64,000 nucleotides of DNA from Oscillospiraceae bacterium (lineage in GTDB: Bacteria > Bacillota > Clostridia > Oscillospirales > CAG-272), in the NCBI GenBank assembly GCA_015063695.1, contig SVTQ01000007.1, forward strand, positions 1 to 64,000. Direction: 5' to 3'. Shown here one piece after another: positions 10,370-45,624 of the stretch (position 1 is its first letter; each line of letters starts with the position of its first letter). The position numbers and the translations under genes were made by a program. A model generated the notes under the pieces. The model ran no database searches. It was not told the DNA's origin and saw only the letters and a list, made by a program, of their open reading frames with translations.

Positions 10370-10378
10370 ATAAGTGAG

Positions 10379-23710: not shown

Positions 23711-24307
23711 TTATGACATCCATTTGAAGTCTGACAGCGGCCAGAAACGACAGAGAATTTTTCCGACGATCTGATCCTCAGCAATACAGCCGATCATACT
23801 GCTTCGGCTGTCAATGGACGTTTCTCTATGGTCTCCCATCATAAAATATGCGTTTTCGGGCACCTGATAAGGAAACTCCACGTCGCACTCTCCCAGTGCT
23901 TTTTCGCTGACGTAAGGCTCTGAAAGAACCTCGCCGTTAAGATAAACCGTGCCGTCGGCTTCTATCCACAGATAGTCGCCGGGGGCGGCAATAATACGTT
24001 TTATCAGAATTTTATTGGAATAATAAAATGCGCAAAGGTCTCCCTTTTCAAGCTTATCCGTCTTGACAAGGAGCACAAGGTCGCCGTCCATAAGGCTTGG
24101 CTCCATGCTCGTTCCCGCGATCTGAAGCACGGGAAAAATAAGTGTCGCAACCAGAGCCGCTATTGCGGCAACAACTATCAGCGCGTTTACGGTACTGCGA
24201 AGCAGCTTCCGAAACCGCCTTTTATACTGCTCCCTTTTAAGCTCCCTTTGCAGGGCGCCAATCTCAGGGAGCTCTTTGTTATTTCGGTTTCCCGCTTGTT
24301 TATTCAT
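23711..24307 (-). CDS. lepB: Signal peptidase I
   Basis: A 198-aa type I signal peptidase. A basic cytoplasmic start precedes a single membrane helix (about 40-63). The catalytic serine is Ser67 in GTSMEP and the general base is Lys103 in LIKRI. MGDHRETSIDSRS is the box E-type block. It lies first in the pilus operon, 84 bp ahead of the adhesin. A dedicated signal peptidase is common in sortase-pilus loci and sometimes processes or assists pilin maturation. Confidence 0.94.
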   Translation of the reverse strand: MNKQAGNRNNKELPEIGALQRELKREQYKRRFRKLLRSTVNALIVVAAIAALVATLIFPVLQIAGTSMEPSLMDGDLVLLVKTDKLEKGDLCAFYYSNKILIKRIIAAPGDYLWIEADGTVYLNGEVLSEPYVSEKALGECDVEFPYQVPENAYFMMGDHRETSIDSRSSMIGCIAEDQIVGKILCRFWPLSDFKWMS

Positions 24308-24700: not shown

Positions 24701-24780
24701 AGAAAAAATAACGCGCACGCGCGCGAAGGTGCCTCGCGGCACAACCTCCCACCAGAAAAAACAACAAACACGCACCACGT

Positions 24781-24925
24781 AGGGGCGACCATCGGTCGTC
24801 CGCCCAACAAGCACTGACAAACGTCCAACACCAGCCTCGTAGGGGCGACCATCGGTCGTCCGCCCAACAAGCACTGACAAACGTCCAACACCAGCCTCGT
24901 AGGGGCGACCATCGGTCGTCCGCCC
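24781..24925 (+). repeat. 60-bp tandem repeat carrying family A palindromes
   Basis: Positions 24781-24840 and 24841-24900 are identical, and the first 25 bp of a third unit follow. Each unit starts with AGGGGCGACCATCGGTCGTC, the GTAGGGG palindrome, plus a 35-bp tail. A related single palindrome (GTAGGGGATGG...CATCCCG) lies at 24960-24986. Minus-strand reading frames through it are repeat artefacts. Confidence 0.92.
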
Positions 24926-25085
24926 GACAAACACTTGATAAAAGACAACTACAAACTCCGTAGGGGATGGCGCCCTCGACATCCCGTCACCCTTACAACC
25001 GACCAACATCATCTCCGTTGATACTCCTCCCCCTCCAAAGTCCTTAAAAGATTGTGGCGTTTTTTCAAAAAAGGGCCTTTTTTGC

Positions 25086-28632: not shown

Positions 28633-28661
28633 TTGACAAAAAACAAAAAAAGTTGTACCAT
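28633..28661 (+). promoter_or_regulatory. Promoter of the Leu T-box operon
   Basis: TTGACA (28633-28638), a 17-nt spacer and TACCAT (28656-28661). The expected start is near 28668, at the foot of Stem I. Confidence 0.7.
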
Positions 28662-28667: not shown

Positions 28668-28938
28668 AAATTAAAGGCTATGATGATATTAAGTCAAAGG
28701 GCAAAAGCTTTTACAGAGAGTTGTCGGTCGGTGCGAGACAACATCGCTTCTTTTGACTGTCTCCTATCGGAGCCGAAACGTTGAAATACACAGTAAACGT
28801 TTCCGGGTGGACCCGTTACAGTTCAAAGGCTTGACTGAGTCTTACAGAGTGGCCGTTTTATCGGCAACACGGGTGGTACCGTGGTCAATTATTTGTTGAT
28901 CATCCCGCAGAGTTTTTACAGCTCTGCGGTTTTTGTTT
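28668..28938 (+). ncRNA. T-box leader, specifier CUC (leucine)
   Basis: Stem I shows the AGAGAG...GGTGCGAG distal region. Its base is GGCT/AGCC, and GATA (28685-28688) pairs with TATC (28765-28768) above the K-turn. The specifier triplet directly before that helix, allowing one intervening base, is CTC at 28761-28763. The T-box GGGTGGTACCGTGG lies at 28871-28884, with bulge TGGT suited to a tRNA ending in ACCA. The terminator CCGCAGAG/CTCTGCGG plus T-run ends at about 28938. The base after the codon is C rather than the usual purine, so the Leu call is slightly weaker than the other two. Confidence 0.87.
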
Positions 28939-29032: not shown

Positions 29033-30421
29033 ATGAGAAAAATTTACGTTGCAGACTATTCACTGAAAAAGCTTTCCGAGGACCGCAAGGCTTCCCTCCT
29101 TTTCAGAGAAAAAACAGCTATTGCAGAATGTATTGAGGCCTTCGGTGCCGATGCCGTTGAGCTTGACGAAATAAAAAGCGTTAAGGAAGATACAATAATT
29201 TACAGAACCATCGCCTCAAAGCTCAAGAATTGTGCTTTGTGCATTCCCGTAGGATTTTCCGTTGACGGAATTGAAGCCGCATGGGAATGCGTGAAGGATG
29301 CAGCGCACCCCTGCCTGCAGGTTGCCCTTCCCGTCTCCACTGTACAGATGGAATACATGTACCATGTAAAGGAAGCAAAGATGCTCACAAAGCTCGAAGA
29401 GCTTGTTTCCGCTTCAAAGGCAAAGTGCGAAAACGTCGAATTCATTGCCATGGATGCGACACGCGCCGACAAGGATTTTCTTATTAACGCTATTAAAGCG
29501 GCAAAGGAAAACGGAGCCTCTGCCGTCACCGTATGCGACGATGCAGGCGTTTTCCTTCCCACGGAATTCTCCGCTCTTGTAACAGAGCTTAAGGCGGCGT
29601 GCGACGTCCCCCTTTACGTAAAAGTGAGCGACGGCATCAATATGGCGACCGCATGTGCTTTTGCGGCAGTCCGCGCAGGGGCTGACGGTGTCAAGACTGC
29701 AATTTCCGGCAAGGGCGCGTTGCTTACCCACAAGTTTGCAGAAGTTATCAGAGCAAAGGGCGAGACCATGGGCGTTTCCACCTCCCTTAAGGCTACCGAG
29801 ATCGCAACAGACGTTAAAAAGATAAAGAAGACCATGGGCTCCGAGAGCAACGCACAGAGCGCAGAAGGCAATGATAATTCATCTGTTATTCTCGATAAAG
29901 GAAGCACGCTCTCCGACGTTACAAACGCCGCATGCTCCCTCGGCTACGACCTCTCCGACGAGGACAACGGCAAGGTCTACTCCGCTCTTATGAACGTCCT
30001 TGAAAACAAGAGCTCCGTCGGAGCAAAGGAGCTTGAAGCGATAATCGCAAGCTCCGCAATGCAGGCACCCTCCACCTACCATCTTGAAAGCTACGTTACA
30101 AGCTGCAGCAACGTCACCGCTTCCATGACACAGGTAGTTCTCGTCAAGGACGGCGAAAAGCTTTCGGGCGTTGCATCGGGCGACGGCCCCGTTGACTCTG
30201 CCTTCAAAGCCATTGAGCAGAGTGTCGGCTTCCACTACGAGCTTGACGACTTCCAGATCCAGGCGGTAACCGAAGGCAAAGAGGCTCTCGGCTCGGCAGT
30301 AGTTAAGCTTCGCGCAGGCGGCAGACTTTATTCGGGAAGCGGTGTTTCCGCCGACATAGTTGCCGCAAGTATCAGAGCATATATCAATGCGCTGAACAAA
30401 ATCGTTTATGAGGAGATATAA
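29033..30421 (+). CDS. LeuA-like protein with degenerate catalytic barrel and intact leucine-regulatory domain
   Basis: A 462-aa protein in the 2-isopropylmalate synthase layout: an HMGL-type barrel (about 1-250) and the LeuA C-terminal domain (about 290-462) with GDGPVDSAFKAI and GSGVSADIVAASIRAYINALN. The barrel aligns along its length (EFIAMDATRAD for EFSAEDATRSD) but has lost key residues. The TTLRDGEQ motif is YSLKKLSED, the metal-binding HCHND is KVSDG, and GIGERAGN is AISGKGAL. It is unlikely to condense acetyl-CoA with 2-oxoisovalerate. The regulatory domain suggests leucine sensing. It is first in the Leu T-box operon, 3 nt ahead of the acyl-CoA synthetase fusion. Confidence 0.8.
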   Translation: MRKIYVADYSLKKLSEDRKASLLFREKTAIAECIEAFGADAVELDEIKSVKEDTIIYRTIASKLKNCALCIPVGFSVDGIEAAWECVKDAAHPCLQVALPVSTVQMEYMYHVKEAKMLTKLEELVSASKAKCENVEFIAMDATRADKDFLINAIKAAKENGASAVTVCDDAGVFLPTEFSALVTELKAACDVPLYVKVSDGINMATACAFAAVRAGADGVKTAISGKGALLTHKFAEVIRAKGETMGVSTSLKATEIATDVKKIKKTMGSESNAQSAEGNDNSSVILDKGSTLSDVTNAACSLGYDLSDEDNGKVYSALMNVLENKSSVGAKELEAIIASSAMQAPSTYHLESYVTSCSNVTASMTQVVLVKDGEKLSGVASGDGPVDSAFKAIEQSVGFHYELDDFQIQAVTEGKEALGSAVVKLRAGGRLYSGSGVSADIVAASIRAYINALNKIVYEEI

Positions 30422-30424: not shown

Positions 30425-32884
30425 ATGAAAACCGTTTTTTCAACCCGTAATGCAGAACGCGCTTCTTTTATAGATGTGTGCCGTCTCGCTTATGACTACG
30501 GCTTTTCGGGTTTTGAAATATTTGATGCAGAAAAGGAAAGACGCGCTCACCGCGACAGTATCCTCAGAAACGAGGAGACCTTTGACGCAAAAAGAAAGCT
30601 CCATAACAGAAATATCGCAATTTCTGCACTTGTCTATCCAAATGCCGTTGATAAAGACCCCGAGGCTTCTTCCGCACTTGTAAAATATATCGATATGGCA
30701 CGTAATGCCGGCATCGCGACGGTCATCGTAAGACTTGAGGAGGAGCCCTCTGCAGAGGCCCTTGATGCCACCCTTGCTCCCGCCATCAAAAAAGCGGAAC
30801 AGGCAGACATCGAGATACTTTTCGAGACCTCAGGCTACCTTGCAGACACCACCAAGCTCTCCTCTCTTATAACCCGTTTTGCCAGCCGAATTCTCGGCGC
30901 CGCATGGAATATCAGAGAGACCTATTTTGTATCGGGCGAGAGTGCTGAAAATACCATCGTAAACCTTGGAGCCTACATCAGATACGTATATCTCGGCGAC
31001 AGAAAGGACGGTGTAAACGTTCTTATCGGCGAAGGAGAGCTCCCGGTTTCCGAGTTTGTTGATGCCCTCTCCTCCCTCAACTATGAAGGATATATCTGCG
31101 CTCTCTGGAATGACGAGATAAACGATGCGGATATCGTCCTCACCCACTTTGCAAGCTTTATGGAAAAGCTTGAGTCGGCAAGCACTGCCGAAGGAAGTCT
31201 GCAGTACAACCGCTCAAGAACGGGCACCTTCCCCTGGAAGAAGTACGACACCGTTGACATGACCTTTTCACAGGTCCTTGACACCATGGTGGATATCTAT
31301 CCCGACCAGTACGCCTTCAAGTACACCACACTTGACTATACAAGGACTTATAAGCAGTTCAGACGTGACGTTGACGAAGCTGCCGCCGCCCTTATTTCAC
31401 TCGGAGTAAAGCCCGGCCACCACGTTGCTCTCTGGGCAACAAACGTGCCTCAGTGGTATATCACCTTCTGGGCAACCGTTAAGATCGGAGCAGTTCTTGT
31501 AACTGTAAACACAGCTTACAAAATTCACGAAATAGAATACCTTTTAAAGCAGTCCGACTCTCACACTCTTGTGATGATAGAGAGCTCCAAGGATGCAAAC
31601 TATAAAGAAATAATGGAAGAGCTTTGCCCTGAGCTTAAGAGCCTTCGCCCCGGCGACCCTCTTTACAGCGCAAGACTTCCCTTCCTTCGTAATATTATTA
31701 CGGTGGGCTTTGAAATGGACGGCTGCCTCACCTGGGAAAAGATGCTTGACAGAGCTGACACAGTTCCCTTTGAAGAAGTACGCCGCCGCGCATCCATGGT
31801 GCGCCCCGACGACGTTTGCAACATGCAGTACACCTCGGGTACAACGGGATTTCCTAAGGGCGTTATGCTGACCCACCGCAACATCGTCAATAACGGTAAG
31901 ATAATCGGTGACAGAATGGACCTCTCCACCGCTGACCGCATGATGATACAGGTTCCCATGTTCCATTGCTTCGGCATGGTTCTCTCCATGACCTCCACCA
32001 TGACCCACGGCGGAACCCTCTCTCCTCTGCCTTACTTCTCACCAAAGAGCTCCCTTGCCTGCATCAATGCGGAAAAGATAACCTGCTTCAACGGCGTTCC
32101 CACCATGTTTATCGCCATGTTCAACCATGAGGATTTCCCGAAAACAGATTTTTCCTATATGAGAACGGGTATCATGGCAGGCGCAAACTGCCCTGCCGAC
32201 CTTATGCGCCGCGCGGCGGATGAGATGAACATGAAAGAAATCATCTCCGTTTACGGTCAGACCGAAGCCTCTCCCGGATGCACTATGGGCGAGGTCAACG
32301 AGGACATCGACCACAGAGTTGAGACAGTAGGCAGTGCCTTCCCCGGCGTTGAATGTAAGATAATCGACCCCGAAACCGGAGAAGAAGTTCCCGACGGGGA
32401 AAACGGCGAGTTTGTTGCCCGCGGCTTCAATATCATGAAGGGCTACTATAAGATGCCCCGAGCTACCGCCGAGGCTATCGACAAGGACGGTTGGCTCCAT
32501 TCGGGAGATATCTGCTGCCGTACCCCCGACGGATATTTCAAGGTCACGGGAAGACTTAAGGATATGATAATCAGAGGCGGCGAAAACCTCTATCCCCGTG
32601 AGATAGAAGAATTCTATCTGACAAATCCCAAGGTACGTGACGTACAGGTCATCGGTGTACCCGACGAAAGATACGGCGAAGAGGCCTGCGCATGGATAAT
32701 CCTCCACGAGGGCGAAGAAGCTGACGAAAGCTACATGAGAGAGTACGGAAACTCCCACATGGCTCGCCATAAGGTCCCCCGTTACTTCATGTTCGTCAAG
32801 ACCTTCCCCATGAACGCCGCAGGAAAAATTCTCAAATATAAAATGAGAGAAGAATCCGTAAAGCTTCTGGGGCTTGAAAAATAA
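30425..32884 (+). CDS. TIM-barrel / AMP-forming acyl-CoA synthetase fusion (Leu unit)
   Basis: An 819-aa two-domain protein. Residues 1-250 resemble a xylose isomerase-like/AP-endonuclease-2 TIM barrel (YGFSGFEIFDAE; YEGYICALWND near the end). Residues 270-819 are a complete FadD-like ANL ligase: P-loop YTSGTTGFPKG from about Tyr469, YGQTEAS, HSGDICCR, GRLKDMIIRGGENLYPREIE and the A10 lysine in AAGKILKYKMRE. It should activate a carboxylic acid to acyl-AMP and acyl-CoA. Control by a Leu T-box and its company with LeuA-like and branched-chain genes suggest isovalerate as substrate; this is inference. The barrel may sense or present a ligand. A terminator follows. Confidence 0.85.
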   Translation: MKTVFSTRNAERASFIDVCRLAYDYGFSGFEIFDAEKERRAHRDSILRNEETFDAKRKLHNRNIAISALVYPNAVDKDPEASSALVKYIDMARNAGIATVIVRLEEEPSAEALDATLAPAIKKAEQADIEILFETSGYLADTTKLSSLITRFASRILGAAWNIRETYFVSGESAENTIVNLGAYIRYVYLGDRKDGVNVLIGEGELPVSEFVDALSSLNYEGYICALWNDEINDADIVLTHFASFMEKLESASTAEGSLQYNRSRTGTFPWKKYDTVDMTFSQVLDTMVDIYPDQYAFKYTTLDYTRTYKQFRRDVDEAAAALISLGVKPGHHVALWATNVPQWYITFWATVKIGAVLVTVNTAYKIHEIEYLLKQSDSHTLVMIESSKDANYKEIMEELCPELKSLRPGDPLYSARLPFLRNIITVGFEMDGCLTWEKMLDRADTVPFEEVRRRASMVRPDDVCNMQYTSGTTGFPKGVMLTHRNIVNNGKIIGDRMDLSTADRMMIQVPMFHCFGMVLSMTSTMTHGGTLSPLPYFSPKSSLACINAEKITCFNGVPTMFIAMFNHEDFPKTDFSYMRTGIMAGANCPADLMRRAADEMNMKEIISVYGQTEASPGCTMGEVNEDIDHRVETVGSAFPGVECKIIDPETGEEVPDGENGEFVARGFNIMKGYYKMPRATAEAIDKDGWLHSGDICCRTPDGYFKVTGRLKDMIIRGGENLYPREIEEFYLTNPKVRDVQVIGVPDERYGEEACAWIILHEGEEADESYMREYGNSHMARHKVPRYFMFVKTFPMNAAGKILKYKMREESVKLLGLEK

Positions 32885-32898: not shown

Positions 32899-32928
32899 AA
32901 AAGCTCTCCTTTTTGGGGAGCTTTTTTA
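32899..32928 (+). terminator. Terminator of the Leu unit
   Basis: AAAAGCTCTCC pairs with GGGGAGCTTTT across a short T-rich loop, followed by a T-run; it lies 15 bp after the stop codon. Confidence 0.88.
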
Positions 32929-32956: not shown

Positions 32957-33739
32957 AAATGTCCGGACTTGAAAAGATTCATGAACTGTGATATACTTAC
33001 AGGCAGTATAGCAAATCCCTCTACCCTCAATCTTTTTGCCTACGTCAACGGCGACCCCATCTCTTACGTTGATCCTTTTGGTATGTGTAGAGATGAGGCA
33101 AATGAGCAGAATGATTTAGAGAAACGAATAGACTATATAAATCAACATATTAGAGAGAATTCATTATATGAGCTTCTTCAAGAATGGAATATTAGTTTTA
33201 CAGAAACTATAGATAAAGCAGAAGTTGTTTTAATAGATGAATTGTCGGGAAAAGTCAAGGCCACTTTAACAATAGACATTTCTTACCAAACTAGTTTAGA
33301 TGCGAACATTAATTCAGTTTTTTCAACAAATAATGATTCCATATCTGGCGTTCATGAAGTGTTAACTCCGGAAATGATGATTCCTTGGACTAGTATTGGG
33401 ACACAAGTTGGAGCATATTACGATAGTGATAGATCAAGCGTAGGTTATTCATTTGTTATTAATGATAATGAATGGTCTGGTAAAATTATGGAACAGATTG
33501 GTCCATATTCTACTGCTCGAATTTCATCCGTTTCATATACTCCAACAGATGTATTACTCCCAAGTGTTTCAGTATCACTAGACGTTGAAGTAAATCATGA
33601 AGTTACAGTAGGCGTTATAGCAGCAACCTTTGCTATCATGTGCGCTCCCGAAATGATTGTCGCAATGACGCCAACAATAGAAAGTCTTATAACTCAAATT
33701 GGCGACAGTGTAACTAATATCCCCGCACTTGTGAATTAG
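32957..33739 (+). pseudogene. Displaced rhs tip: truncated RHS core plus C-terminal toxin-like domain
   Basis: The frame opens abruptly after a stop at 32954-32956 with RHS-core text (PDLKRFMNCD, ANPSTLNLFAYVNGDPISYVDPFGM) but lacks the several hundred residues of RHS repeats that normally precede it. After DPFGM, about 220 residues of unknown type follow, with a hydrophobic stretch near the end (VGVIAATFAIMCAPEMIVAM). This is the form of an orphan rhs C-terminal cassette, which can recombine into a full rhs gene. A TTG at 32969 could start translation, but no good ribosome site is seen. Codon use is more AT-rich than its neighbours. Two membrane proteins downstream may be immunity genes. Confidence 0.75.
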
Positions 33740-34075
33740 TTGGAAACACATGCGGTATTGGTGGCTTGCGCTTGCCATCTATGCCTATTCGTATACTAAA
33801 TCTACGGGATTTCCAAACAAATGCCTGTCGCGAAATTTGACACATTGCACTAATACTATCCTTTGAAAACAAGGTAGCGCGGCATCGAGAGCCTCAAGTT
33901 GGCTTTGCTGACTGGGGGTTCTCGGATTACCGTTAAGGAAGGAATTCATGTATCTTTTCATCTAAATAGTTAAAGATTTTGATAATCTCCGGTAGTAGTG
34001 CCTTGCGCAATATAATTAAAGTTTAAACGAACTTTTTACATAATTTTTCTTGAAACATGGAGGACACGGAAAAAG
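33740..34075. other. Gap after the rhs tip
   Basis: 336 bp with no supported gene. It holds a GAGAACCCC element at 33887-33924 and AT-rich DNA leading to a GGAGGA site before the next gene. Confidence 0.5.
33887..33924 (-). repeat. GAGAACCCC-type hairpin element, minus orientation
   Basis: On the minus strand it reads CGAGAACCCCCAGTC...CAACTTGAGGCTCTC. The inner AAGTTGGCTTTGCTG is close to that at 91-105, so these two copies are near relatives. Confidence 0.65.
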
Positions 34076-34723
34076 GTGAATGCGTTTAAGTCTTTTTTTT
34101 TATATAAGATTTCATGGCCTATAATTGCATTATTATTCTTTTTTGCACTACTATATTTAATAGTGCTTTGGGATAGAAGAAGTCTAAATAGATTAGTCCA
34201 AAAACAACAGTCAAATAGTTGTACCAGTTCTGAACTATTGAAAGATTATAAGGACTATTTAAAACATCATCCGCTTTTTCCTGACAGCACAAATTTAATT
34301 GTTGCAATCTTACCCATTTTTGCAGCAGAAAAAGAAAGCCCTCTGAAATGGATAAAGAAAATCAACAGCAAAGATTTAAATGATAGATATTTAAATATGG
34401 TTTTGTATGATTACTTTATTTTGCTTGAGAATGGTTTAACTGATGAAATTGAATTTTTCAAAAAGAAAACGGTTAAAAAATATGCTGAAAACAAGACTTT
34501 TAATTTGTTTTATAATATGTACTTTTGCGGTGAACTTCCAACAACCGAAGTAATAGAAACACTTGATGAAAACACACTAAAAGGAATTGCGTATTATTAC
34601 AATTTCGTTTCTGCACTAAAAACCGGCGACAACGAAAAAGCTATTCTCATGAAAAAATATGCAATGGAGTTCGGTCCAAGAGATATAATGCAACAATTAA
34701 TTGACGAAAGGGAAAAAAGATGA
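34076..34723 (+). CDS. Membrane protein of unknown function beside rhs tip
   Basis: A 215-aa protein with one N-terminal membrane helix (about residues 12-32, WPIIALLFFFALLYLIVLW) and a charged, helix-rich cytoplasmic part that may form TPR-like repeats (AYYYNFVSALKTGDNEKAI near the end). I recognise no family. It starts at GTG, overlaps the next gene by 4 nt and is strongly AT-rich. Its place after an rhs C-terminal cassette makes an immunity role plausible but unproven. Confidence 0.6.
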   Translation: MNAFKSFFLYKISWPIIALLFFFALLYLIVLWDRRSLNRLVQKQQSNSCTSSELLKDYKDYLKHHPLFPDSTNLIVAILPIFAAEKESPLKWIKKINSKDLNDRYLNMVLYDYFILLENGLTDEIEFFKKKTVKKYAENKTFNLFYNMYFCGELPTTEVIETLDENTLKGIAYYYNFVSALKTGDNEKAILMKKYAMEFGPRDIMQQLIDEREKR

Positions 34724-35211
34724 AAAAGAGGACTGTGATACATATTATAATCGGCATTGTTGCGCTTGCTATATTGATAGGCTGCAGAATCGTATTTCCT
34801 TCTAACGGGTACTATTTGAGCTTGGAAGAGTGCGAGAAAAACAATAAGAATTCTTTGGCAGATGCGCAACTTGTTACCAAATGTGAAGCAGAGGACTTTA
34901 TATATGAGGTTTGGTCAAATGATCTTGACGAACTGTACGTAATACAAATTCATAACAAAAACGTTCTTGGAATTGATCAGTATAAAATAAAACAAAGTTA
35001 TGCTTATTCAATGGAAAAAGCACTTAACTACTATAAAGAAACTAACAAACTAAAATGGACAAATTGCCCGGAAATCGATGTTTTTAAAGAACCTATTTTC
35101 TCTTGGTGCTTGATTACCAATAACGAAGACACCTTGCAAAATTTATCGTATAATCATGTAATTATTAACTATAATAACGAACAATGTGTGTTATTGTATA
35201 ATATCGATTAG
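34720..35211 (+). CDS. Putative membrane-anchored or lipoprotein, unknown function
   Basis: A 163-aa protein with a basic start and a hydrophobic stretch ending in LIGC near residue 22, which could be a lipobox or a plain membrane anchor. The outer part has several cysteines (ECEKN, TKCEAE, WTNCPEI, SWCLI) and no known motif. Its ATG overlaps the previous TGA (ATGA), so the two genes are coupled. It is a candidate second immunity factor of the rhs tip; nothing in the sequence proves this. Confidence 0.55.
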   Translation: MKKRTVIHIIIGIVALAILIGCRIVFPSNGYYLSLEECEKNNKNSLADAQLVTKCEAEDFIYEVWSNDLDELYVIQIHNKNVLGIDQYKIKQSYAYSMEKALNYYKETNKLKWTNCPEIDVFKEPIFSWCLITNNEDTLQNLSYNHVIINYNNEQCVLLYNID

Positions 35212-35215
35212 TAAG

Positions 35216-35246
35216 AACTGCTTCCTCGAAAGGGGGAGCAGTTTTT
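35216..35246 (+). terminator. Terminator after the rhs-associated genes
   Basis: AACTGCTTCC pairs with GGGAGCAGTT around an 8-nt loop, followed by TTTTTA. Confidence 0.8.
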
Positions 35247-35377
35247 ATCACCTTTCGGTAGAAAGTGAATATACTGTACAACAGAAGGCACCCATGTTTT
35301 TTGGGACATCGGGACAAAGGGACACCAAAAAAACAGCCGCCATTGTTAAAAAGAAACAAAAAAATGTTTTTCACCTA

Positions 35378-35406
35378 TTGACAAACCGTGACGGCGGTGC
35401 TATAAT
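35378..35406 (+). promoter_or_regulatory. Promoter of the Ile T-box unit
   Basis: A perfect TTGACA (35378-35383), a 17-nt spacer and a perfect TATAAT (35401-35406), just before Stem I. Confidence 0.88.
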
Positions 35407-35411
35407 CGTTT

Positions 35412-35820: not shown

Positions 35821-38091
35821 ATGTCCGAAAAGAAAACTATGACTCAGCTTGCCGAGATCGCCGTCCGTATAAAGGAAATGCGCGACATTATGGGCTTTAC
35901 GGTTGCCCAGATGGCAGAAAAAACAGAAGTTGACGAAACACTGTACAATGAATACGAACAGGGAAAAACAGATCTTCCCTTCTCCTTCATTCACAAGTGC
36001 GCCCTTGCTTTCGGCATTGATATTACAGAGCTTATCGAAGGCCATACCGCAAAGCTTTCTTCATATACGATAACAAGAAAGGGACAGGGACAGGAGACCG
36101 CCAAGGAGGACGGCATCGAGATCCGCCACATGGCTCCCATGTTCAGAAAGAAAATAGCCGAGCCTTATTTCGTTAAGTACGAATACAAGGAAGAGCTTCT
36201 TGATAAGCCCATCCACCTTTCCAAGCACTCGGGTCAGGAGTTCGACTATGTCCTCAGCGGAAGACTGAAGGTGCAGATAGGCGACAACGTTGAATACCTC
36301 AGCGAAGGCGACAGCATCTACTACAACTCCTCCACTCCCCACGGCATGATAGCCGTTGACGGCAAGGAATGTCTCTTTGTTGCAGTTGTCCTTCCCGGCG
36401 AGGAAGCGCCTGAAACAACAGTCAGAAAGACCCTTATGGCAACCTCTGCCGAAAAGAAGCCTCTCGTTTCCGAAAAGTTCATCGAGACAGAGGAAGACGA
36501 AAACGGATACCCCCTGAAGATAGATTTCAAGAACGAGGACAGCTTCAACTTCGCCTTTGACGTTGTTGATGAGATCGCAAAGAAATCTCCCGACAAGACA
36601 GCGATGATACACATTTCAAAGGACGCAACGGAGCGCCGCTTCTCCTTTAACGAAATGAAGAGAGCCTCCAACCAGTGCGCCAACTACTTCAAGAGCCTGG
36701 GCATCAAGAAGGGCGACCGCGTTATGCTGGTCCTCAAGCGCCACTATCAGTTCTGGTTTGCTATTCTCGGTCTCCACAAGCTCGGAGCTATTGCGATCCC
36801 CGCAACAAATCAGCTCGTTGCCCATGACTTTGAATACCGCTTCAATGCGGCAGGAGTCAGCGCCATCGTTTGTACTGCCGACGGCGACGTTGCTCACCAG
36901 GTCGAGCTTGCCGAAGGCTCCTCTCCCGATCTTAAGCTGAAGCTCATCGCAAACGGCACCCGTGAGGGCTGGAGAAGCTTTGACGAGGAATATCCCCTCT
37001 ACAGTGCACATTACTACCGCGATGAAAATACACCCTGCGGTAAAGATCTTATGCTCATGTTCTTCACCTCGGGCACAACGGGATATCCCAAGATCGCGGC
37101 TCACGATTACAAGTACGCTCTCGGTCACTACCCGACAGCAAAATATTGGCACGGAGTTTCCGAGCACGGCCTCCACTTCACCATCTCCGACACAGGCTGG
37201 GGCAAGGCTCTCTGGGGCAAGCTCTACGGTCAGTGGCTCTGCGAGGGTGCAGTGTTCACCTACGATTTCGACCGTTTCTCCGCAGCCGATATCCTTCCCA
37301 TGTTCGCAAAATACAATATCACCACATTCTGCGCACCTCCCACCATGCTCAGAATGCTCATAAAAGAAGATATCTCCAAATACGACCTCTCCTCCATCGT
37401 CCACATGACAACGGCAGGCGAAGCACTGAACCCCGAGGTCTACCTGCAGTTTGAAAAGGCAACGGGACTCCAGATCATGGAAGGCTTCGGTCAGACCGAG
37501 CTCACCCTCACCATCGCCAACCTCATGGGCGGCTCTCACAAGGTCGGCTCCATGGGTAAGCCCGTTCCCCTTTACGACGTTGACATCCTTGACTCCGACG
37601 GCAACCCCGTCCCCGACGGTGAGTCCGGCGAAATAGTTGTAAGAATAAGCGACAAGGTTCCCTGCGGTCTCTTCCAGGGTTACTACAGAAACGAAGAAAA
37701 GACAAAGGAAGTTATGCACGACGGCTACTACCACACGGGCGACGTTGCATGGCGCGATGAAGACGGCTTCTTCTGGTACGTGGGTCGAGTTGACGACGTT
37801 ATCAAGTCCTCGGGCTACCGCATCGGTCCCTTCGAAATTGAAAGCGTTATCATGGAGCTTCCCTACGTCCTTGAATGCGGCGTTTCCGCAGTTCCCGACG
37901 AGGTAAGAGGTCAGATAGTAAAAGCGAGCATCGTTCTTACCAAGGGCACAGAGCCCACGGAAGAGCTTAAAAAAGAAATACAGAACTACGTTAAGGAACA
38001 CACAGCTCCCTATAAATACCCCCGTGTTGTTGTGTTCAGAGACGAGCTTCCCAAAACAATCAGCGGAAAAATTCAGCGCAACAAACTTTAA
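35821..38091 (+). CDS. HTH-cupin-acyl-CoA synthetase fusion (Ile unit)
   Basis: A 756-aa three-domain protein. Residues 14-67 are an XRE helix-turn-helix, about 118-193 a small-molecule cupin (HSGQEFDYVLSG with His136 and Glu140, PHG with His174), and about 240-756 an acetyl-CoA synthetase-like ANL ligase (FFTSGTTGYPK to Lys424, GFGQTE, YHTGDVAW, VIKSSGYRIGPFEIES, terminal SGKIQRNKL). HTH-cupin is the usual form of a ligand-sensing repressor; its fusion to the ligase suggests an enzyme that also senses its substrate or binds DNA. The Ile T-box suggests 2-methylbutyrate as substrate (inference). It is a close paralogue of the next gene. The start has AGGAGA upstream. Confidence 0.88.
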   Translation: MSEKKTMTQLAEIAVRIKEMRDIMGFTVAQMAEKTEVDETLYNEYEQGKTDLPFSFIHKCALAFGIDITELIEGHTAKLSSYTITRKGQGQETAKEDGIEIRHMAPMFRKKIAEPYFVKYEYKEELLDKPIHLSKHSGQEFDYVLSGRLKVQIGDNVEYLSEGDSIYYNSSTPHGMIAVDGKECLFVAVVLPGEEAPETTVRKTLMATSAEKKPLVSEKFIETEEDENGYPLKIDFKNEDSFNFAFDVVDEIAKKSPDKTAMIHISKDATERRFSFNEMKRASNQCANYFKSLGIKKGDRVMLVLKRHYQFWFAILGLHKLGAIAIPATNQLVAHDFEYRFNAAGVSAIVCTADGDVAHQVELAEGSSPDLKLKLIANGTREGWRSFDEEYPLYSAHYYRDENTPCGKDLMLMFFTSGTTGYPKIAAHDYKYALGHYPTAKYWHGVSEHGLHFTISDTGWGKALWGKLYGQWLCEGAVFTYDFDRFSAADILPMFAKYNITTFCAPPTMLRMLIKEDISKYDLSSIVHMTTAGEALNPEVYLQFEKATGLQIMEGFGQTELTLTIANLMGGSHKVGSMGKPVPLYDVDILDSDGNPVPDGESGEIVVRISDKVPCGLFQGYYRNEEKTKEVMHDGYYHTGDVAWRDEDGFFWYVGRVDDVIKSSGYRIGPFEIESVIMELPYVLECGVSAVPDEVRGQIVKASIVLTKGTEPTEELKKEIQNYVKEHTAPYKYPRVVVFRDELPKTISGKIQRNKL

Positions 38092-38118
38092 GCATAACAA
38101 CCGCCCAACAAATAACCC

Positions 38119-38449: not shown

Positions 38450-38736
38450 TAATATATAAAGGCTTCGACGAAGAGGGCTTCAAAAACATGACCTGCAGAG
38501 AAGTGACGGTTGGTGCAAGTCACGGAATACTGTTTTGAAGTTTGTAGCTTCCGAGCCGGAAGGAAGAACACCGCAAGACTTTTGCGGCTATTAGAACCTT
38601 CCCGTTATTGCTGCGTAAATGCATACGGCTTATCGGAGCCTGAGTGGCAGTTTTACTGCAATTTGAGTGGTACCGCGGGTGATTTGATTATCAGCACTCG
38701 TCTCAAAGTCACGATCTTTGGGACGGGTGCTTTTTT
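38450..38736 (+). ncRNA. T-box leader, specifier GUA (valine)
   Basis: Stem I: GGCT/AGCC base, GAAG (38470-38473) with CTTC (38548-38551), specifier loop TTTGTAG giving GTA at 38544-38546 followed by G, upper helix CTTCAAAAACA/TGTTTTGAAG, distal AGAGAAGTGAC...GGTGCAAGTCAC. The T-box GAGTGGTACCGCGGG is at 38665-38679. The terminator GCACTCGTCTCAAAG/CTTTGGGACGGGTGC with six T ends the leader. The part from the central stem to the T-box is nearly the same as in the Ile leader, showing common descent. Confidence 0.92.
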
Positions 38737-38761
38737 CGTCCCACATAAACGGAGAATATTT

Positions 38762-41050
38762 ATGGAACAGATTACAGGACTTGACCTCAAAATAAGAGGC
38801 ATGGCGGCCCGAATTAAGGAGCTGCGTGAAATTGAAAACATGACTGCCGAGGAAATGGCGGCGGCAACGGGTATTACCACAGAGGAATACCTTCGCTGTG
38901 AGCAGGGTGAGGAGGACTTAAACTTTGCCTTCATCTACCGCTGCGCAACCATCTTCGGCGTTAACGTCACAGATATTATCGAAGGCTACAGCCCTACGCT
39001 GAAATCCTTCACCGTAACGAGAGCAGGCGGCGGACAGGAGATAGCAAACGCCCACGGCATGACCTATTACAACCTCGCCTACGCCTTCCGGAACAGAATT
39101 GCCGAGCCCCTTTACGTCCGCAGTGTATATGATGAGAGTGCTCAGAATAAAGATATCGAACTTACCACCCACGACGGTCAGGAGCTTGACATCATTATTG
39201 AAGGCCACCTTCTCGTTCAGATAGGCGAGCACCGTGAGATACTCGGCCCCGGCGACAGCATTTATTTTGACTCCTCCGCTCCCCACGGTATGATGGCGGT
39301 AAAGGGACACGACTGCGTGTTCTACGCCATAGTTCTTAACCCCACGGGCGAGCCTATTCCCGAGCTGACCCCTTCAAAGGCTATTCCCGAGAAGAAAAAG
39401 CTGCACCGCGACGACAGGGACAGAATATACAAGAAGTACATAGACGTAACGGAGGACGAAAACGGAACTCCCCTCTCCATCAAGTTCAAGAACACAGACC
39501 ACTTCAACTTTGCCTTCGACCTTGTGGACGAAATGGCAAAGAAAGAGCCCGAAAAGAGAGCTATGCTCCATATCTCAAGGGACGGAACGGAGAGAGATTT
39601 CACCTTCAAGGATATGAAGAAGGCATCCAACCAGTGCGCAAACTACTTCAAGAGCCTGGGCATAAAGAAGGGCGACCGCGTTATGCTCGTCCTCAAGCGC
39701 CACTATCAGTTCTGGTTCGCAATGCTGGGTCTCAATAAGCTTGGCGCAGTTGCCATCCCTGCAACAAATCAGCTCCTCGCCCACGACTTTGAATACCGCT
39801 TCAATTCCGCAGGAATAAACACCGTTATCTGCACCGCAGACGGCGACAGCGCAGAGCAGGTCGATATCGCCTGCAAGAGTGCTCCCACCGTTGTAAACAA
39901 GCTTATAGTAAACGGCGAAAGAGAGGGCTGGAGAAGCTTCGACGAGGAATACACCCTCTACAGCACACACTACAAAAAAGGCTACGATGCCCCCGGCGGA
40001 AACGATACCATGCTCATGTACTTCACCTCGGGCACTTCGGGATATCCCAAGATCGCAGTTCATAATTATAAATATGCCCTCGGTCACTTCCATACCGCAA
40101 AGTACTGGCACAACGTTGACCCCGACGGACTTCACTTTACAATTTCCGACACTGGCTGGGCTAAAGCAATGTGGGGCAAGCTCTACGGTCAGTGGCTCTG
40201 CGAGGCGGCGACCTTCGTTTACGACTTTGACCGTTTCGATGCGGCAAAGATACTGCCCATGTTTGCAAAACATAACATCACAACGTTCTGCGCTCCCCCC
40301 ACCATGCTCCGCATGATGATAAAGCAGGATATTTCGAAATACGATTTTTCAAGCGTTCAGCACATGACCACCGCAGGCGAGGCTCTTAACCCCGAGGTAT
40401 ACCGTCAGTTTGAAAAGGCTACGGGGCTTCAGATACTCGAAGGCTTCGGCCAGACGGAAAGTACTATGATAATCGGTAACATGACGGGCGCACCCCATAA
40501 GATAGGCTCCATGGGTAAGCCTGCTCCCATCTACGACGTTGAGCTCGTTGACTCAGACGGAAATGCAGTTGCAACAGGTGAATCCGGCGAGATCGTAATT
40601 AATCTCAAAAGCGGTCACCCCTGCGGCCTCTTCAAGGAATACTACAATGATAAAGAAAAAACAGACGAAGCTATCCGCGACGGCTACTACCATACAGGGG
40701 ACGTTGCATGGCGCGATGAAGACGGCTTCTTCTGGTACGTCGGTCGAGTTGACGACGTTATCAAGTCCTCGGGCTACCGTATCGGTCCTTTTGAAATTGA
40801 AAGCGTTATCATGGAGCTTCCCTACGTTCTTGAATGCGGCGTTTCCGCTGCTCCCGACGAGGTAAGAGGTCAGGTAGTAAAAGCGAGCATCGTCCTCACC
40901 AAGGGCACAGAGCCCACGGAAGAGCTCAAAAAAGACATCCAGACCTACGTTAAGGAACACACAGCACCTTATAAGTACCCCCGTATCGTTGTATTCAAAG
41001 ATGAGCTTCCCAAGACCGTAAGCGGAAAGATCCAGAGAAACAAACTTTAA
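38762..41050 (+). CDS. HTH-cupin-acyl-CoA synthetase fusion (Val unit)
   Basis: A 762-aa paralogue of the gene at 35821 with the same order: XRE HTH (about 18-70), cupin (about 125-198, HDGQELDIIIEG, PHG) and ANL ligase (YFTSGTSGYPK, GFGQTEST, YHTGDVAW, VIKSSGYRIGPFEIES, SGKIQRNKL). The last 150 residues are almost identical to the Ile paralogue, while the HTH-cupin part has diverged more, as expected if the sensory part was re-tuned. A frame opening at 38510 lies inside the T-box and is rejected; GGAG is 7 nt before the ATG at 38762. The Val T-box points to isobutyrate as substrate (inference). Confidence 0.88.
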   Translation: MEQITGLDLKIRGMAARIKELREIENMTAEEMAAATGITTEEYLRCEQGEEDLNFAFIYRCATIFGVNVTDIIEGYSPTLKSFTVTRAGGGQEIANAHGMTYYNLAYAFRNRIAEPLYVRSVYDESAQNKDIELTTHDGQELDIIIEGHLLVQIGEHREILGPGDSIYFDSSAPHGMMAVKGHDCVFYAIVLNPTGEPIPELTPSKAIPEKKKLHRDDRDRIYKKYIDVTEDENGTPLSIKFKNTDHFNFAFDLVDEMAKKEPEKRAMLHISRDGTERDFTFKDMKKASNQCANYFKSLGIKKGDRVMLVLKRHYQFWFAMLGLNKLGAVAIPATNQLLAHDFEYRFNSAGINTVICTADGDSAEQVDIACKSAPTVVNKLIVNGEREGWRSFDEEYTLYSTHYKKGYDAPGGNDTMLMYFTSGTSGYPKIAVHNYKYALGHFHTAKYWHNVDPDGLHFTISDTGWAKAMWGKLYGQWLCEAATFVYDFDRFDAAKILPMFAKHNITTFCAPPTMLRMMIKQDISKYDFSSVQHMTTAGEALNPEVYRQFEKATGLQILEGFGQTESTMIIGNMTGAPHKIGSMGKPAPIYDVELVDSDGNAVATGESGEIVINLKSGHPCGLFKEYYNDKEKTDEAIRDGYYHTGDVAWRDEDGFFWYVGRVDDVIKSSGYRIGPFEIESVIMELPYVLECGVSAAPDEVRGQVVKASIVLTKGTEPTEELKKDIQTYVKEHTAPYKYPRIVVFKDELPKTVSGKIQRNKL

Positions 41051-41289: not shown

Positions 41290-42369
41290 ATGAAATACGA
41301 TATTTCAATCACCAAGACCGACGCGCCAAAGGCGCGCCCTGTTGACGAATCCAAGCTGGGATTCGGCAGAATTTTCACAGACCACATGTTCATCATGGAT
41401 TACAGCGCTGACAAGGGCTGGTACAACGGACGCATCGTTCCCTTCGGCCCCCTTCCCATCCACCCTGCATCCACCGTTCTTCACTACGGCGCAGAAATTT
41501 TCGAGGGTATGAAGGCTTACCGCGCCGCTGACGGAAACATCCGTCTTTTCAGACCCATGGAAAACATCAAGAGACTCAACAACAGCGCAGAGAGACTTTG
41601 CCTGCCCCTTCTTGACGAAGAAGGCTGCCTCGACATACTCAAGACGATGGTCGAGCTTGAAAAGGACTGGGTTCCCCACTCCGAGGGCACTTCCCTTTAC
41701 ATCAGACCCTACATGTTCGGTAACGACCCTCACCTCGGCGTTCACGCAGTTAAGGAAGCGACCTTCGTCGTTATCTGCTCACCCGTCGGCGCATACTACG
41801 CTGAGGGAATCAACCCCGTAAAGATCGCTATCGAGTCCTCCGACGTGCGCGCAGTACGCGGCGGCACGGGATACGCAAAGTGCGGCGGCAACTACGCGGC
41901 AAGCCTTCGCGCAGGTCAGAAAGCCGAAGAAAACGGCTACACTCAGGTGCTTTGGCTTGACGGTGTTGAAAGAAAATATATCGAAGAAGTAGGTGCCATG
42001 AACGTTATGTTCAAAATAGACGGCAAGATAGTAACTCCTGCTCTCTCAGGCTCCATTCTTCCCGGTATCACAAGAAAATCCTGCATCGAGCTCCTCAAAG
42101 CATGGGGCTACACCGTTGAAGAGAGAGCATTCTCCATCGACGAGCTCTTTGAAGCTTGCGAGAGCGGAACTCTTGAGGAAGCATGGGGCACGGGAACCGC
42201 GGCAGTAGTTTCCCCCATCGGCCACCTCTTCTACAACGGCAAGGAATACACGGTTTCCGACAATAAGATAGGCGAAGTTACACAGAAGCTTTACGACAAC
42301 CTCACAGGCATCCAGTGGGGCAAGGTAGAAGATACCTTCGGCTGGTGCGTTGACGTTTGTAATGGCTGA
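41290..42369 (+). CDS. ilvE: Branched-chain amino acid aminotransferase
   Basis: A 359-aa class IV PLP transaminase. The PLP lysine is Lys197 in GTGYAKCGGNYAAS. HYGAEIFEGMKAYR, LYIRPYMFG and the GTGTAAVVSPIG loop are typical of large-type IlvE. It interconverts 2-oxo acids with Leu, Ile and Val using glutamate. It lies directly after the three T-box ligase units and its end overlaps the P-loop ATPase gene of the oxidoreductase cluster by 8 nt, so it is translationally coupled to that cluster. No T-box precedes it. Confidence 0.95.
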   Translation: MKYDISITKTDAPKARPVDESKLGFGRIFTDHMFIMDYSADKGWYNGRIVPFGPLPIHPASTVLHYGAEIFEGMKAYRAADGNIRLFRPMENIKRLNNSAERLCLPLLDEEGCLDILKTMVELEKDWVPHSEGTSLYIRPYMFGNDPHLGVHAVKEATFVVICSPVGAYYAEGINPVKIAIESSDVRAVRGGTGYAKCGGNYAASLRAGQKAEENGYTQVLWLDGVERKYIEEVGAMNVMFKIDGKIVTPALSGSILPGITRKSCIELLKAWGYTVEERAFSIDELFEACESGTLEEAWGTGTAAVVSPIGHLFYNGKEYTVSDNKIGEVTQKLYDNLTGIQWGKVEDTFGWCVDVCNG

Positions 42370-43039
42370 TAAAAGCTTCAAACGCCTCTATATTTTCGCA
42401 GGACACTACGGAAGCGGCAAGACCAATATTGCGGTAAACTTCGCCCTTCACATGAAGAAAAACGGCCTTGACGTCCGTATTGCGGATATGGATATAGTAA
42501 ACCCCTATTTCCGTACAAAGGACAGCACAGACGTTCTTGAGGCGGCAGGAATACCCCTCGTTTCCCCTGCCTTTGCCAATACAAACGTTGACCTGCCTGC
42601 CCTTCCTGCCGAAATGTACGGCATTATACAGAATAAGAATTTTTACGGTGTTCTCGATGTCGGAGGCGACGACCGCGGAGCATACGCTCTCGGAAGATAC
42701 GCGCCCTTCATCCTTGAAGAGAACAACTATGAAATGTGCTTCGTTGCCAACTTCCACCGCCCTCTCACAAGGTGCGCCGAGGATGCTCTCGAGGTCATGA
42801 GAGAGATCGAGGCGGCGTGCGGTATAAAATTCACCGCCATCGTCAACAACTCGAACCTCGGAGGCGATACGGATGCAGCATCCGTTGAGAGCACTTTCAA
42901 AGAAGCTGAAAGACTTTCGGAAATATCAGGCCTCTCCATTCTGTTCACCTCGGTGACGGAAGAACTCTCAAAAGAGGTTACGGGAGAAAATATTTTCGGA
43001 ATGACCCTTCAGCGCAAATATTTCGATTTGATCCAGTAA
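42362..43039 (+). CDS. P-loop ATPase of the oxidoreductase cluster (MinD/CobQ-like)
   Basis: A 225-aa protein with a Walker A FAGHYGSGKTNIAVN near residue 10, a DMDIVNPYFRTKD switch-like segment and DVGGDDRGAYALGRY as Walker B/sensor region, the layout of the SIMIBI (MinD/CobQ/ArsA) class. It overlaps ilvE by 8 nt and precedes the ferredoxin-like subunit by 13 nt. Similar ATPases occur next to 2-oxoacid:ferredoxin oxidoreductase genes in Clostridia; a role in Fe-S or cofactor assembly for the enzyme is conceivable but unknown. A TTG four codons earlier is less likely than this ATG. Confidence 0.78.
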   Translation: MADKSFKRLYIFAGHYGSGKTNIAVNFALHMKKNGLDVRIADMDIVNPYFRTKDSTDVLEAAGIPLVSPAFANTNVDLPALPAEMYGIIQNKNFYGVLDVGGDDRGAYALGRYAPFILEENNYEMCFVANFHRPLTRCAEDALEVMREIEAACGIKFTAIVNNSNLGGDTDAASVESTFKEAERLSEISGLSILFTSVTEELSKEVTGENIFGMTLQRKYFDLIQ

Positions 43040-43269: not shown

Positions 43270-44334
43270 ATGTCTGAAAAGGTACTTATGAAAGGCAACG
43301 AGGCTATTGCCGAGGCGGCTATCAGAGCAGGCTGCCGTCACTACTTCGGTTATCCCATCACTCCCCAGACCGAGCTTGCCGCTTACATGGCAAAAAGAAT
43401 GCCCAAGATAGGCGGTTGCTTCCTTCAGGCCGAAAGTGAGATTTCCGCTATCAATATGGTATACGGCGTTGCAGGAACAGGCAAGCGCGTTATGACCTCC
43501 TCCTCCAGCCCCGGAGTTTCCCTCAAGCAGGAAGGCATCTCCTACATAGCAGGCGCCGACCTTCCCGCACTTATCGTCAACGTTCAGAGAGGCGGCCCCG
43601 GTCTCGGCGGCATCCAGCCCTCTCAGTCCGACTATTTCCAGGCAACAAAGGGCGGCGGTCACGGTGACTACCACCTTATCGTTCTCACTCCTGCCTCCGT
43701 TCAGGAAATGGCAGACCTGACCTCCCACGCATTTGACCTTGCGGACAAATACCGCATGCCCGTTATGCTCCTTGCAGACGGTACGATGGGTCAGATGATG
43801 GAGCCCGTAGTTCTTCCCGAGGAAAAGCCCGTTGATGAAACGGAAAAGCCCTGGGCGGTAACAGGCACGAAGTGTGCCCGTCCCCATAACATCATAAACT
43901 CTCTCTACCTCGTTCCCGACGAGCTGGAGAAGACAAACTTTGAAAGATACGAAAAATACAAGACCATTGAAGAAAACGAAGTAATGTGCGAGTCCTTCAT
44001 GATGGAGGATGCAGAATACTGTGTAGTTGCTTACGGTATAGCTGCGCGCGTTGCAAGAAACGCAGTCGTTGAAGCACGCGAGGCAGGCATCAAGGTGGGT
44101 CTTATCCGTCCCATCACAGTATGGCCCTTCCCCGCAAAGATCCTTTCCGAAGCCGCTGACAAGGTAAAAGCATTTATCAGCGTTGAACTCTCAATGGGTC
44201 AGATGATAGAAGACATTAAGCTTGCAACAGAGTGCAAAAAGCCTGTTTACCTGTGCAACCGCGCAGGCGGCATGATACCCACTCCCGAGCAGGTTCTTGA
44301 AGCTATTAAAAACTTAGAAGGAGGTAACAACTGA
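43270..44334 (+). CDS. vorB: 2-ketoisovalerate-type ferredoxin oxidoreductase, alpha subunit
   Basis: A 354-aa alpha chain of the VorB/KorA type: GNEAIAEAAIRAGCRHYFGYPITPQTE at the start (pyrimidine-domain fold), EISAINMVYGVAGTGKRVMTSSSSPG and QRGGPGLGGIQPSQSDY. Such enzymes reversibly convert 2-oxo acids plus CoA to acyl-CoA, CO2 and reduced ferredoxin. This subgroup is usually annotated as acting on branched-chain 2-oxo acids, but 2-oxoglutarate or aromatic acids cannot be excluded from sequence. Its TGA overlaps the next ATG by one base. Confidence 0.9.
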   Translation: MSEKVLMKGNEAIAEAAIRAGCRHYFGYPITPQTELAAYMAKRMPKIGGCFLQAESEISAINMVYGVAGTGKRVMTSSSSPGVSLKQEGISYIAGADLPALIVNVQRGGPGLGGIQPSQSDYFQATKGGGHGDYHLIVLTPASVQEMADLTSHAFDLADKYRMPVMLLADGTMGQMMEPVVLPEEKPVDETEKPWAVTGTKCARPHNIINSLYLVPDELEKTNFERYEKYKTIEENEVMCESFMMEDAEYCVVAYGIAARVARNAVVEAREAGIKVGLIRPITVWPFPAKILSEAADKVKAFISVELSMGQMIEDIKLATECKKPVYLCNRAGGMIPTPEQVLEAIKNLEGGNN

Positions 44335-45086
44335 TGGTAGTATTTGAAAAACCCAAAAGTCTTACGGACGCAAAGCTTCACTACTGTCCCGGATGTACCC
44401 ACGGTATCATCCACAGACTTGTTGCCGAAGCGATAGACTCCCTCGGAATTGAGGGAAAGACCATAGGCGTTGCACCCGTAGGATGCTCCGTTATGGCATA
44501 CAACTACTTCACCTGCGACATGGTCGAAGCGGCTCACGGCAGAGCGCCCGCCGTTGCAACGGGTCTCAAGAGAGCTCTCCCCGAAAACATCATATTCACC
44601 TATCAGGGCGACGGCGACCTTGCCTCCATCGGTATGGCGGAAACGGTTCACGCCGCAACAAGAAACGAAAACATCACGATCATCTTTGTAAACAACGCTA
44701 TCTACGGCATGACAGGCGGTCAGATGGCGCCCACATCCCTCCCCGGTCAGGTCACACAGACCTCTCCCTACGGACGTGATATCGCAACTGCAGGCTACCC
44801 CATCAAGGTATCCGAAATGCTCTCCACACTTGACGGCCCCGAATTTATCGCACGCGTTGCGGTAAACAACGTTAAAAACGTTAAGAATGCCGCAAAGACG
44901 ATCAAGAAGGCGTTTGAAAATCAGGTTGCCGGACGCGGCTTCTCCCTTGTTGAAGTCGTTTCCACCTGTCCCACAAACTGGGGCCTCACACCCGAAAAGG
45001 CTCTCGTATGGCTTGAAGAAAACATGCTTCCCTACTATCCTTTAGGTGTTTACAAGGACAGAAGCGCAAAGAAGGAGGAAAACTGA
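44334..45086 (+). CDS. 2-oxoacid:ferredoxin oxidoreductase, TPP-binding beta subunit
   Basis: A 250-aa beta chain. YCPGCTHGIIHRL opens the fold, GDGDLASIGMAETVHAATRNENITIIFVNN is the TPP pyrophosphate/magnesium motif (GDG...NN), and GMTGGQMAPTS follows. It binds thiamine diphosphate and performs the oxidative or reductive carboxylation chemistry with the alpha chain. AGGAGG lies at the end of the alpha gene, 8 nt before the start. Confidence 0.94.
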   Translation: MVVFEKPKSLTDAKLHYCPGCTHGIIHRLVAEAIDSLGIEGKTIGVAPVGCSVMAYNYFTCDMVEAAHGRAPAVATGLKRALPENIIFTYQGDGDLASIGMAETVHAATRNENITIIFVNNAIYGMTGGQMAPTSLPGQVTQTSPYGRDIATAGYPIKVSEMLSTLDGPEFIARVAVNNVKNVKNAAKTIKKAFENQVAGRGFSLVEVVSTCPTNWGLTPEKALVWLEENMLPYYPLGVYKDRSAKKEEN

Positions 45087-45087
45087 T

Positions 45088-45624
45088 ATGACAAGTCAAA
45101 TTCTTATTGCAGGCTTCGGCGGACAGGGCGTTCTCTTCGCAGGAAAATTCATTTCCTACATGGGACTTCTTGAAGGTAAGGAGCTCAGCTGGCTTCCCTC
45201 CTACGGCCCCGAAATGCGCGGCGGCACGGCTAACTGCAGTGTTATTATCAGCGACGACCCCGTCGGCTCTCCCATCGTTTCAAATCCCGATATCCTCATG
45301 GCTATGAACCTCCCCTCCCTCGACAAGTACGAGGACGCGGTAGTTCCCGGAGGCATGATCTTCGTTGACTCCACTCTCATCGAAAGAAAAGTAAAGAGAG
45401 ACGACGTCAAGGTGTTCTATATCCCTTCCACGTTTCTTGCACAGCAGAGCGGAGTTCCCACCCTTGCCAACATGATAATGGTAGGTAAGTTCATCAAGGA
45501 AAGCAGCGCAGTTTCCGAAAGCTATATCGAAGAAGCTCTGAAAAAGGTCGTTTCCGCAAAGAGAGCAAATCTTCTTGATCTCAACTACAACGCTATCAAG
45601 AGCGGCATGGACTTTGCCGAATAA
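45088..45624 (+). CDS. 2-oxoacid:ferredoxin oxidoreductase, gamma subunit
   Basis: A 178-aa gamma chain starting [20 protein letters not shown], the conserved GxGGQG motif, followed by [13 protein letters not shown]. It shapes the CoA-binding site. The frame could begin 14 codons earlier inside the beta gene, but AAGGAGG directly precedes the ATG at 45088. It completes a four-subunit enzyme; no pyruvate-type fusion is present. Confidence 0.93.

Follow-up and report, generated by a model that had tools for sequence, protein, structure and literature searches.

There is precedent for enzymes that have lost their activity and serve as regulatory subunits. In the HisZ-HisG ATP phosphoribosyltransferase a dead paralog acts as the amino-acid-responsive regulatory subunit of another pathway enzyme. 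IlvN, the regulatory subunit of acetohydroxyacid synthase, is an ACT-domain protein and not a pseudoenzyme. That rumen bacteria make leucine, valine and isoleucine from isovalerate, isobutyrate and 2-methylbutyrate has been established since the 1960s, and work by Allison and co-workers published in 1962 and 1966 (as cited in PMC7356843) demonstrated the carboxylation of isovalerate to leucine in them. The gene of the classical route, leuA, encoding isopropylmalate synthase (LeuA), is in some cases under T-box control (PMC2494555). The literature searched yielded neither a gene set nor a feedback sensor for the isovalerate carboxylation pathway. Nor did we find, in a search that covered few subscription journals, a description of a dead isopropylmalate synthase or leucine-sensing regulatory subunit, or of end-product sensing transferred from a lost pathway to an enzyme of its replacement.

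The window, by which we mean the whole 64,000-nucleotide stretch of DNA analyzed, encodes a homolog of LeuA that we call pseudo-LeuA. It lies between a T-box leader and the gene for a ligase whose N-terminal part is a TIM barrel (the TIM-ligase), with further genes for branched-chain metabolism downstream. The features are collected in Table 1.

Table 1. Features of the pseudo-LeuA locus, with positions numbered from the first nucleotide of the window.
Feature	Position	Strand	Basis or remark
Sigma-70-like promoter (TTGACA, 17 nt, TACCAT) just 5' of the T-box	28633..28661	+	Consensus scan; weak evidence, overall matches no more than chance
T-box leader (RF00230) with leucine specifier	28671..28910	+	cmscan 108.1 bits, gathering cut-off 93
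Specifier codon CUC (Leu)	28761..28763	+	Position in T-box alignment
T-box-controlled intrinsic terminator, 10-bp stem and T-run	28905..28929	+	Hairpin with U-run
Pseudo-LeuA, catalytically dead isopropylmalate synthase homolog	29033..30421	+	ORF of 462 aa
Degenerate DRE-TIM barrel of pseudo-LeuA	29033..29803	+	Residues 1-257; metal and catalytic residues lost
LeuA allosteric (leucine-binding/dimerization) domain of pseudo-LeuA, conserved	30023..30403	+	Residues 331-457; PF08502, 1.4e-29
TIM barrel (AP_endonuc_2) fused to AMP-forming acyl-CoA ligase; proposed isovalerate ligase and sensor target	30425..32884	+	TSGTTGFPKG and C-terminal GK intact
Terminator-like hairpin 3' of the ligase, proposed end of the two-gene unit	32906..32920	+	Weak evidence alone
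XRE-HTH + cupin + MbcS-like acyl-CoA ligase; proposed isobutyrate/2-methylbutyrate ligase of the pathway module	35821..38091	+	
Second XRE-HTH + cupin + MbcS-like acyl-CoA ligase	38510..41050	+	Annotated start uncertain
Class IV (branched-chain type) aminotransferase	41290..42369	+	Clusters with pseudo-LeuA in several orthologous loci
P-loop protein adjoining the oxidoreductase genes, conserved in orthologous clusters	42350..43039	+	Weak ParA/CbiA matches only
Three-subunit 2-oxoacid:ferredoxin oxidoreductase, proposed reductive carboxylase of branched acyl-CoA	43270..45624	+	Subunits 43270-44334, 44334-45086, 45046-45624

The barrel of pseudo-LeuA matches the HMGL-like family of Pfam (PF00682, 2.6e-27, residues 18-257), and the C-terminal domain belongs to the LeuA_dimer family, with a score of 103 bits against a gathering cut-off of 24.9. 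In the predicted structure (pLDDT 85) the barrel is confident and the arrangement of the domains is not (pTM 0.58). The predicted barrel superimposes on that of the isopropylmalate synthase 3ewb with a TM score of 0.91 and an rmsd of 1.8, and M. tuberculosis LeuA was also matched. None of the curated LeuA models reaches its cut-off, the lowest of which is 517 bits. The best of them, NF002086, gives a maximum of 236 bits (cut-off 532), and TIGR00973 gives 212 bits (cut-off 598.7).

We aligned pseudo-LeuA with E. coli LeuA and 21 intact LeuA sequences from relatives. Arg13, Asp14, Glu141, His202, His204, Asn238 and His300 (E. coli numbering) are invariant in the intact set; Arg13 is catalytic, Asp14 of the TLRDGEQ motif and the HxH pair bind the metal, and His300 lies in the linker. 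All seven are replaced or deleted in the window protein, in full accord with the original prediction that the catalytic and metal-binding motifs are lost. The replacement motifs are found where it had placed them, with YSLKKLSED at residues 9-17, KVSDG at 197-201 and AISGKGAL at 223-230. The GIGERAGN loop is four residues shorter, and linker subdomain I (SGIHQDG) is deleted. Both deletions recur throughout a set of 26 pseudo-LeuA sequences (the window and 25 orthologs), in which the remaining positions are replaced or scattered. The model scores together with these residues led us to reject re-annotation as a divergent but active LeuA, citramalate synthase or homocitrate synthase.

The loss extends to the full set of 107 pseudo-LeuA sequences examined, in which the named loci are the best 80 of at least 578 stretches that code for a relative. 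The HxH metal pair occurs in 0/107 and His202 is never present; 63 of the 107 retain none of the seven residues, and the maximum retained is three. Homologs with restored motifs in the same operon, which would have counted against the original prediction, were not seen among these orthologs. The 107 open orthologous frames also rule out chance or a frame artifact as the origin of the reading frame. Nearly all of the named loci come from gut and rumen Clostridia. They include three MAG contigs labeled Spirochaetales, which may be binning errors or instances of transfer. In a tree that left out one wrongly framed row (L190) and one citramalate synthase row, pseudo-LeuA forms a single branch apart from LeuA types 1 and 2 and from citramalate synthase (support 100/100).

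The pattern of conservation is inverted relative to real LeuA. Mean pairwise identity in the barrel is 38% for 26 pseudo-LeuA sequences against 62% for 21 intact LeuA, while in the allosteric domain it is 64% against 47%. Constraint, which in LeuA is strongest at the active site, is now strongest in the leucine domain. Pseudo-LeuA is thus a homolog of an enzyme that has lost its catalytic residues and is under purifying selection, as would be expected of a pseudoenzyme subunit.

It might be argued that the barrel is still catalytic, acting in branched acyl-CoA metabolism as a metal-independent lyase, as a thioesterase or in CoA transfer, with feedback by leucine occurring within pseudo-LeuA. 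The fold of the barrel is kept, and its Asp142 and Arg145 (E. coli numbering) are still invariant in the pseudo-LeuA alignment, so some function of the pocket may remain; a few residues of the barrel, D141, R144, E107 and K113 (window numbering), are invariant. However, no conserved new polar set replaces the lost metal site, since positions 13, 14, 141, 202 and 238 (E. coli numbering) vary widely among the orthologs. The barrel is moreover the fast-evolving half of the protein, and every pathway step in the cluster already has an enzyme. We consider a catalytic role unlikely.

The regulatory domain retains both of the motifs claimed for it, GDGPVDSAFKAI at residues 383-394 and GSGVSADIV at residues 435-443. 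Two glycine loops preceding helices are invariant in the pseudo-LeuA alignment, at G383, G385 and P386 and at G435 and G437. Judging from the alignment and the known structure, these would correspond to loops seen in the known structure.

The leucine T-box predicted upstream of the gene is clearly present, with a covariance model match above the gathering cut-off and a leucine specifier (Table 1). An Rfam T-box lies 5' of pseudo-LeuA in 21 of 28 relatives' loci, and the 22 aligned leaders, the window's among them, carry leucine specifiers throughout, 21 of them CUC and one CUG. In the named loci a T-box motif is found upstream of pseudo-LeuA in 65/77 with a broader motif and in 39/80 with a stricter one, and the readable specifiers are CUC (52) and CUG (8). 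At least five named loci (L110, L113, L114, L141 and L151) have neither the T-box motif nor an Rfam match. Only 3 nt separate pseudo-LeuA from the TIM-ligase gene, and the transcription unit probably comprises just these two genes.

The association of pseudo-LeuA with the TIM-ligase is constant. The fusion is the next gene in 26/26 of the relatives' loci read, a TIM domain directly follows pseudo-LeuA in 79/79 assessable named MAG loci, and the adjoining ligases form one clade (99/96). No natural fusion of sensor and ligase occurs in the 80 named loci, where three long frames proved to be N-terminal extensions. The best NCBIfam match of the TIM-ligase is a general fatty-acid ligase, below cut-off.

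The original prediction had left the partner of the sensor as either the ligase or the oxidoreductase. The comparison favors the ligase, which is the next gene in every assessable locus, over the oxidoreductase, the genes for which often lie elsewhere. Both in the window and in several orthologous loci, the genes for the oxidoreductase and aminotransferase do belong to the cluster, and a leucine sensor could act upon either of these, or on RNA or DNA. Yet the ligase alone is the constant immediate neighbor, the other genes often falling outside the stretches read, and a Pfam search found no nucleic-acid-binding domain in pseudo-LeuA. A partner other than the ligase therefore seems improbable.

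The universal adjacency indicates a partner and not a ligand. Pseudo-LeuA might accordingly be a structural or stabilizing subunit of the TIM-ligase, or might bind isovalerate, 4-methyl-2-oxopentanoate or isoleucine, without being a leucine sensor. The LeuA_dimer domain also serves the isoleucine-sensing citramalate synthase. Against this, the profiles matched by the regulatory domain are those of isopropylmalate synthase, the citramalate model matching the barrel only, and the T-box specifiers are for leucine. We would give such a role a low probability, and leucine is the ligand that we favor.

The TIM-ligase can also occur alone. About 19 relatives have a TIM-domain ligase, mostly as a complete fusion, without pseudo-LeuA, which rules out that the ligase exists only together with the sensor. 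A CUC T-box lies directly upstream of the stand-alone gene in 12/12 tested. Because these ligases carry leucine T-boxes of their own, the ligase is a leucine-pathway gene in its own right, to which the sensor is an addition. That stand-alone ligases work somewhere without the sensor counts against our reading below to the extent that ligase activity by itself does not require it.

The TIM domain of the ligase (30425-31210) is a fast-evolving barrel like that of a sugar epimerase. In the subclade of the window, for example, YVYLGD and ICALWN stand in place of the HVHIKD and SLEW found in others, at positions that we take to resemble epimerase metal ligands and that are mostly lost in this subclade. 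For this reason it may be a docking domain, and it is a possible second pseudoenzyme domain in the pseudo-LeuA/ligase unit. Covariation between the dead barrel and the TIM domain exceeds the trend of the ligase with a partial r of 0.36, both being fast-evolving neighbors; this is modest, though compatible with a contact.

We compared the content of leucine pathway genes in 97 related genomes, 29 of which carry pseudo-LeuA. LeuA of type 1 or type 2 is present in 0/29 of these, where 17.3 would be expected (p = 1.4e-16), and LeuC above the cut-off of TIGR01343 in 0/29, where 13.5 would be expected (p = 9.4e-11), these being Fisher p values that ignore shared ancestry, for genome sets read by hand from the listed matches. 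LeuC was the downstream enzyme searched. Six of the 29 have ilvC. In the genome of the window, which is 91% complete, ilvC was not found, and the search for a true leuA elsewhere in this genome that the original prediction had proposed found none; its other HMGL-like proteins are presumably Re-citrate synthase and an oxaloacetate decarboxylase subunit. The alternation can be seen within one genus, where three genomes (G000, G001 and G003) carry pseudo-LeuA with the ligase, and G002 has leuA, leuC and ilvC without the TIM-ligase.

The absence of leuA and leuC from pseudo-LeuA genomes is what might be seen if pseudo-LeuA were a decaying and functionless relic of leuA. This is very hard to reconcile with a frame that is open in 107 orthologs across families and two phyla, with a fixed operon position and regulation, and with a regulatory domain more conserved than that of real LeuA; the purifying selection contradicts it. 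We regard a relic as extremely improbable.

Eleven further genomes (G011, G027, G031, G040, G043, G044, G057, G061, G073, G077 and G085) have a type 1 LeuA over or just under cut-off, often with citramalate synthase beside it, and lack both LeuC over cut-off and IlvC. The catalytic residues of LeuA are intact in several that were checked, and 10/11 have a TIM-domain ligase without pseudo-LeuA. These genomes may be intermediates toward pseudo-LeuA.

An acyl-CoA ligase, an oxidoreductase and an aminotransferase are thus all present, and leuA and leuC are absent. From its sequence, the gene set of the window fits the isovalerate carboxylation route to leucine, with isovalerate as the putative substrate of the TIM-ligase, and it matches the steps expected for the pathway of Allison (1962, 1966) as cited in PMC7356843. 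With the two MbcS-like ligases, the downstream genes supply what is required for making branched-chain amino acids out of branched-chain fatty acids. The two further ligase genes are paralogous, each with a transcription-factor-like head on a metabolic enzyme, and are possibly self-regulating ligases for isobutyrate or 2-methylbutyrate. They are closest to MbcS (NF047394), from which they differ in scoring below the cut-off and in being fused to XRE-HTH and cupin domains. Unrelated small ORFs, one of them RHS-like, lie between the pseudo-LeuA unit and these genes (32969-35458); in one relative (G079, locus L038) the two are contiguous.

Elsewhere the window contains a ZMP/ZTP riboswitch (10376-10458). 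A gene at 19247-24307 encodes a 1459-aa surface protein in which repeated adhesin-like and fibro-slime-like domains and an LPSTG-like sorting signal were recognized by eye, as was a signal-peptidase-like gene directly after it. Repeats with a GTAGGGG core occur as three tandem copies of 60 nt (24759-24938) and three dispersed copies of 48 nt (38081-38330).

We think it likely that pseudo-LeuA is a non-catalytic leucine-sensing subunit that feedback-inhibits the neighboring ligase, and the comparison of sequences supports the original prediction that a dead LeuA has been kept as a leucine sensor. Bacteria that have lost leuABCD would make leucine from isovalerate. The ligase would convert isovalerate to isovaleryl-CoA, the ferredoxin oxidoreductase would generate 4-methyl-2-oxopentanoate from this by reductive carboxylation, and transamination would then give leucine. 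The old first enzyme, LeuA, would be left with no reaction to catalyze while keeping its allosteric domain, whose dimer interface would be the binding site for leucine. Docked onto the TIM domain of the ligase, the dead barrel would relay the signal, and an abundance of leucine would shut off the activation of isovalerate. Uncharged tRNA-Leu would set the expression of both genes through the T-box. As the T-box acts at transcription and the putative sensor would act on enzyme activity, leucine would control the pathway twice. Many gut and rumen bacteria most likely keep a dead LeuA to let leucine shut down leucine synthesis from isovalerate.

On balance we favor the view that a lineage which gave up de novo leucine synthesis for salvage from isovalerate converted its former first enzyme into a catalytically inactive, dedicated leucine sensor that attaches to the enzyme opening the new pathway, whereby feedback control would have been transferred from one chemistry to an unrelated one. 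This would be a clean example of a replacement pathway inheriting the feedback control of the pathway that was lost. For the leucine branch of the isovalerate route, a ligase and a sensor can now be named as candidates, together with their switch, and they are common in gut and rumen Clostridia. The pseudo-LeuA unit could provide a genomic marker for bacteria dependent on branched-chain fatty acids.

Pseudo-LeuA shares with LeuA (TIGR00973/PRK00915; M. tuberculosis 3FIG, Listeria 3EWB) the barrel fold, the second linker subdomain and the C-terminal allosteric domain, and like some leuA genes it is under T-box control. It differs in having lost the GIGER loop, linker subdomain I and every metal-binding and catalytic residue, in scoring far below the family cut-offs, in its inverted conservation and in having a ligase as partner. 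Like IlvN, it is proposed to be a distinct subunit through which an enzyme of a branched-chain pathway senses an amino acid, although pseudo-LeuA is a pseudoenzyme and not an ACT-domain protein. The working model resembles HisZ-HisG, where a dead paralog is likewise the regulatory subunit. HisZ is unrelated in fold and origin, coming from a histidyl-tRNA synthetase, whereas pseudo-LeuA descends from the enzyme that opened the replaced pathway.
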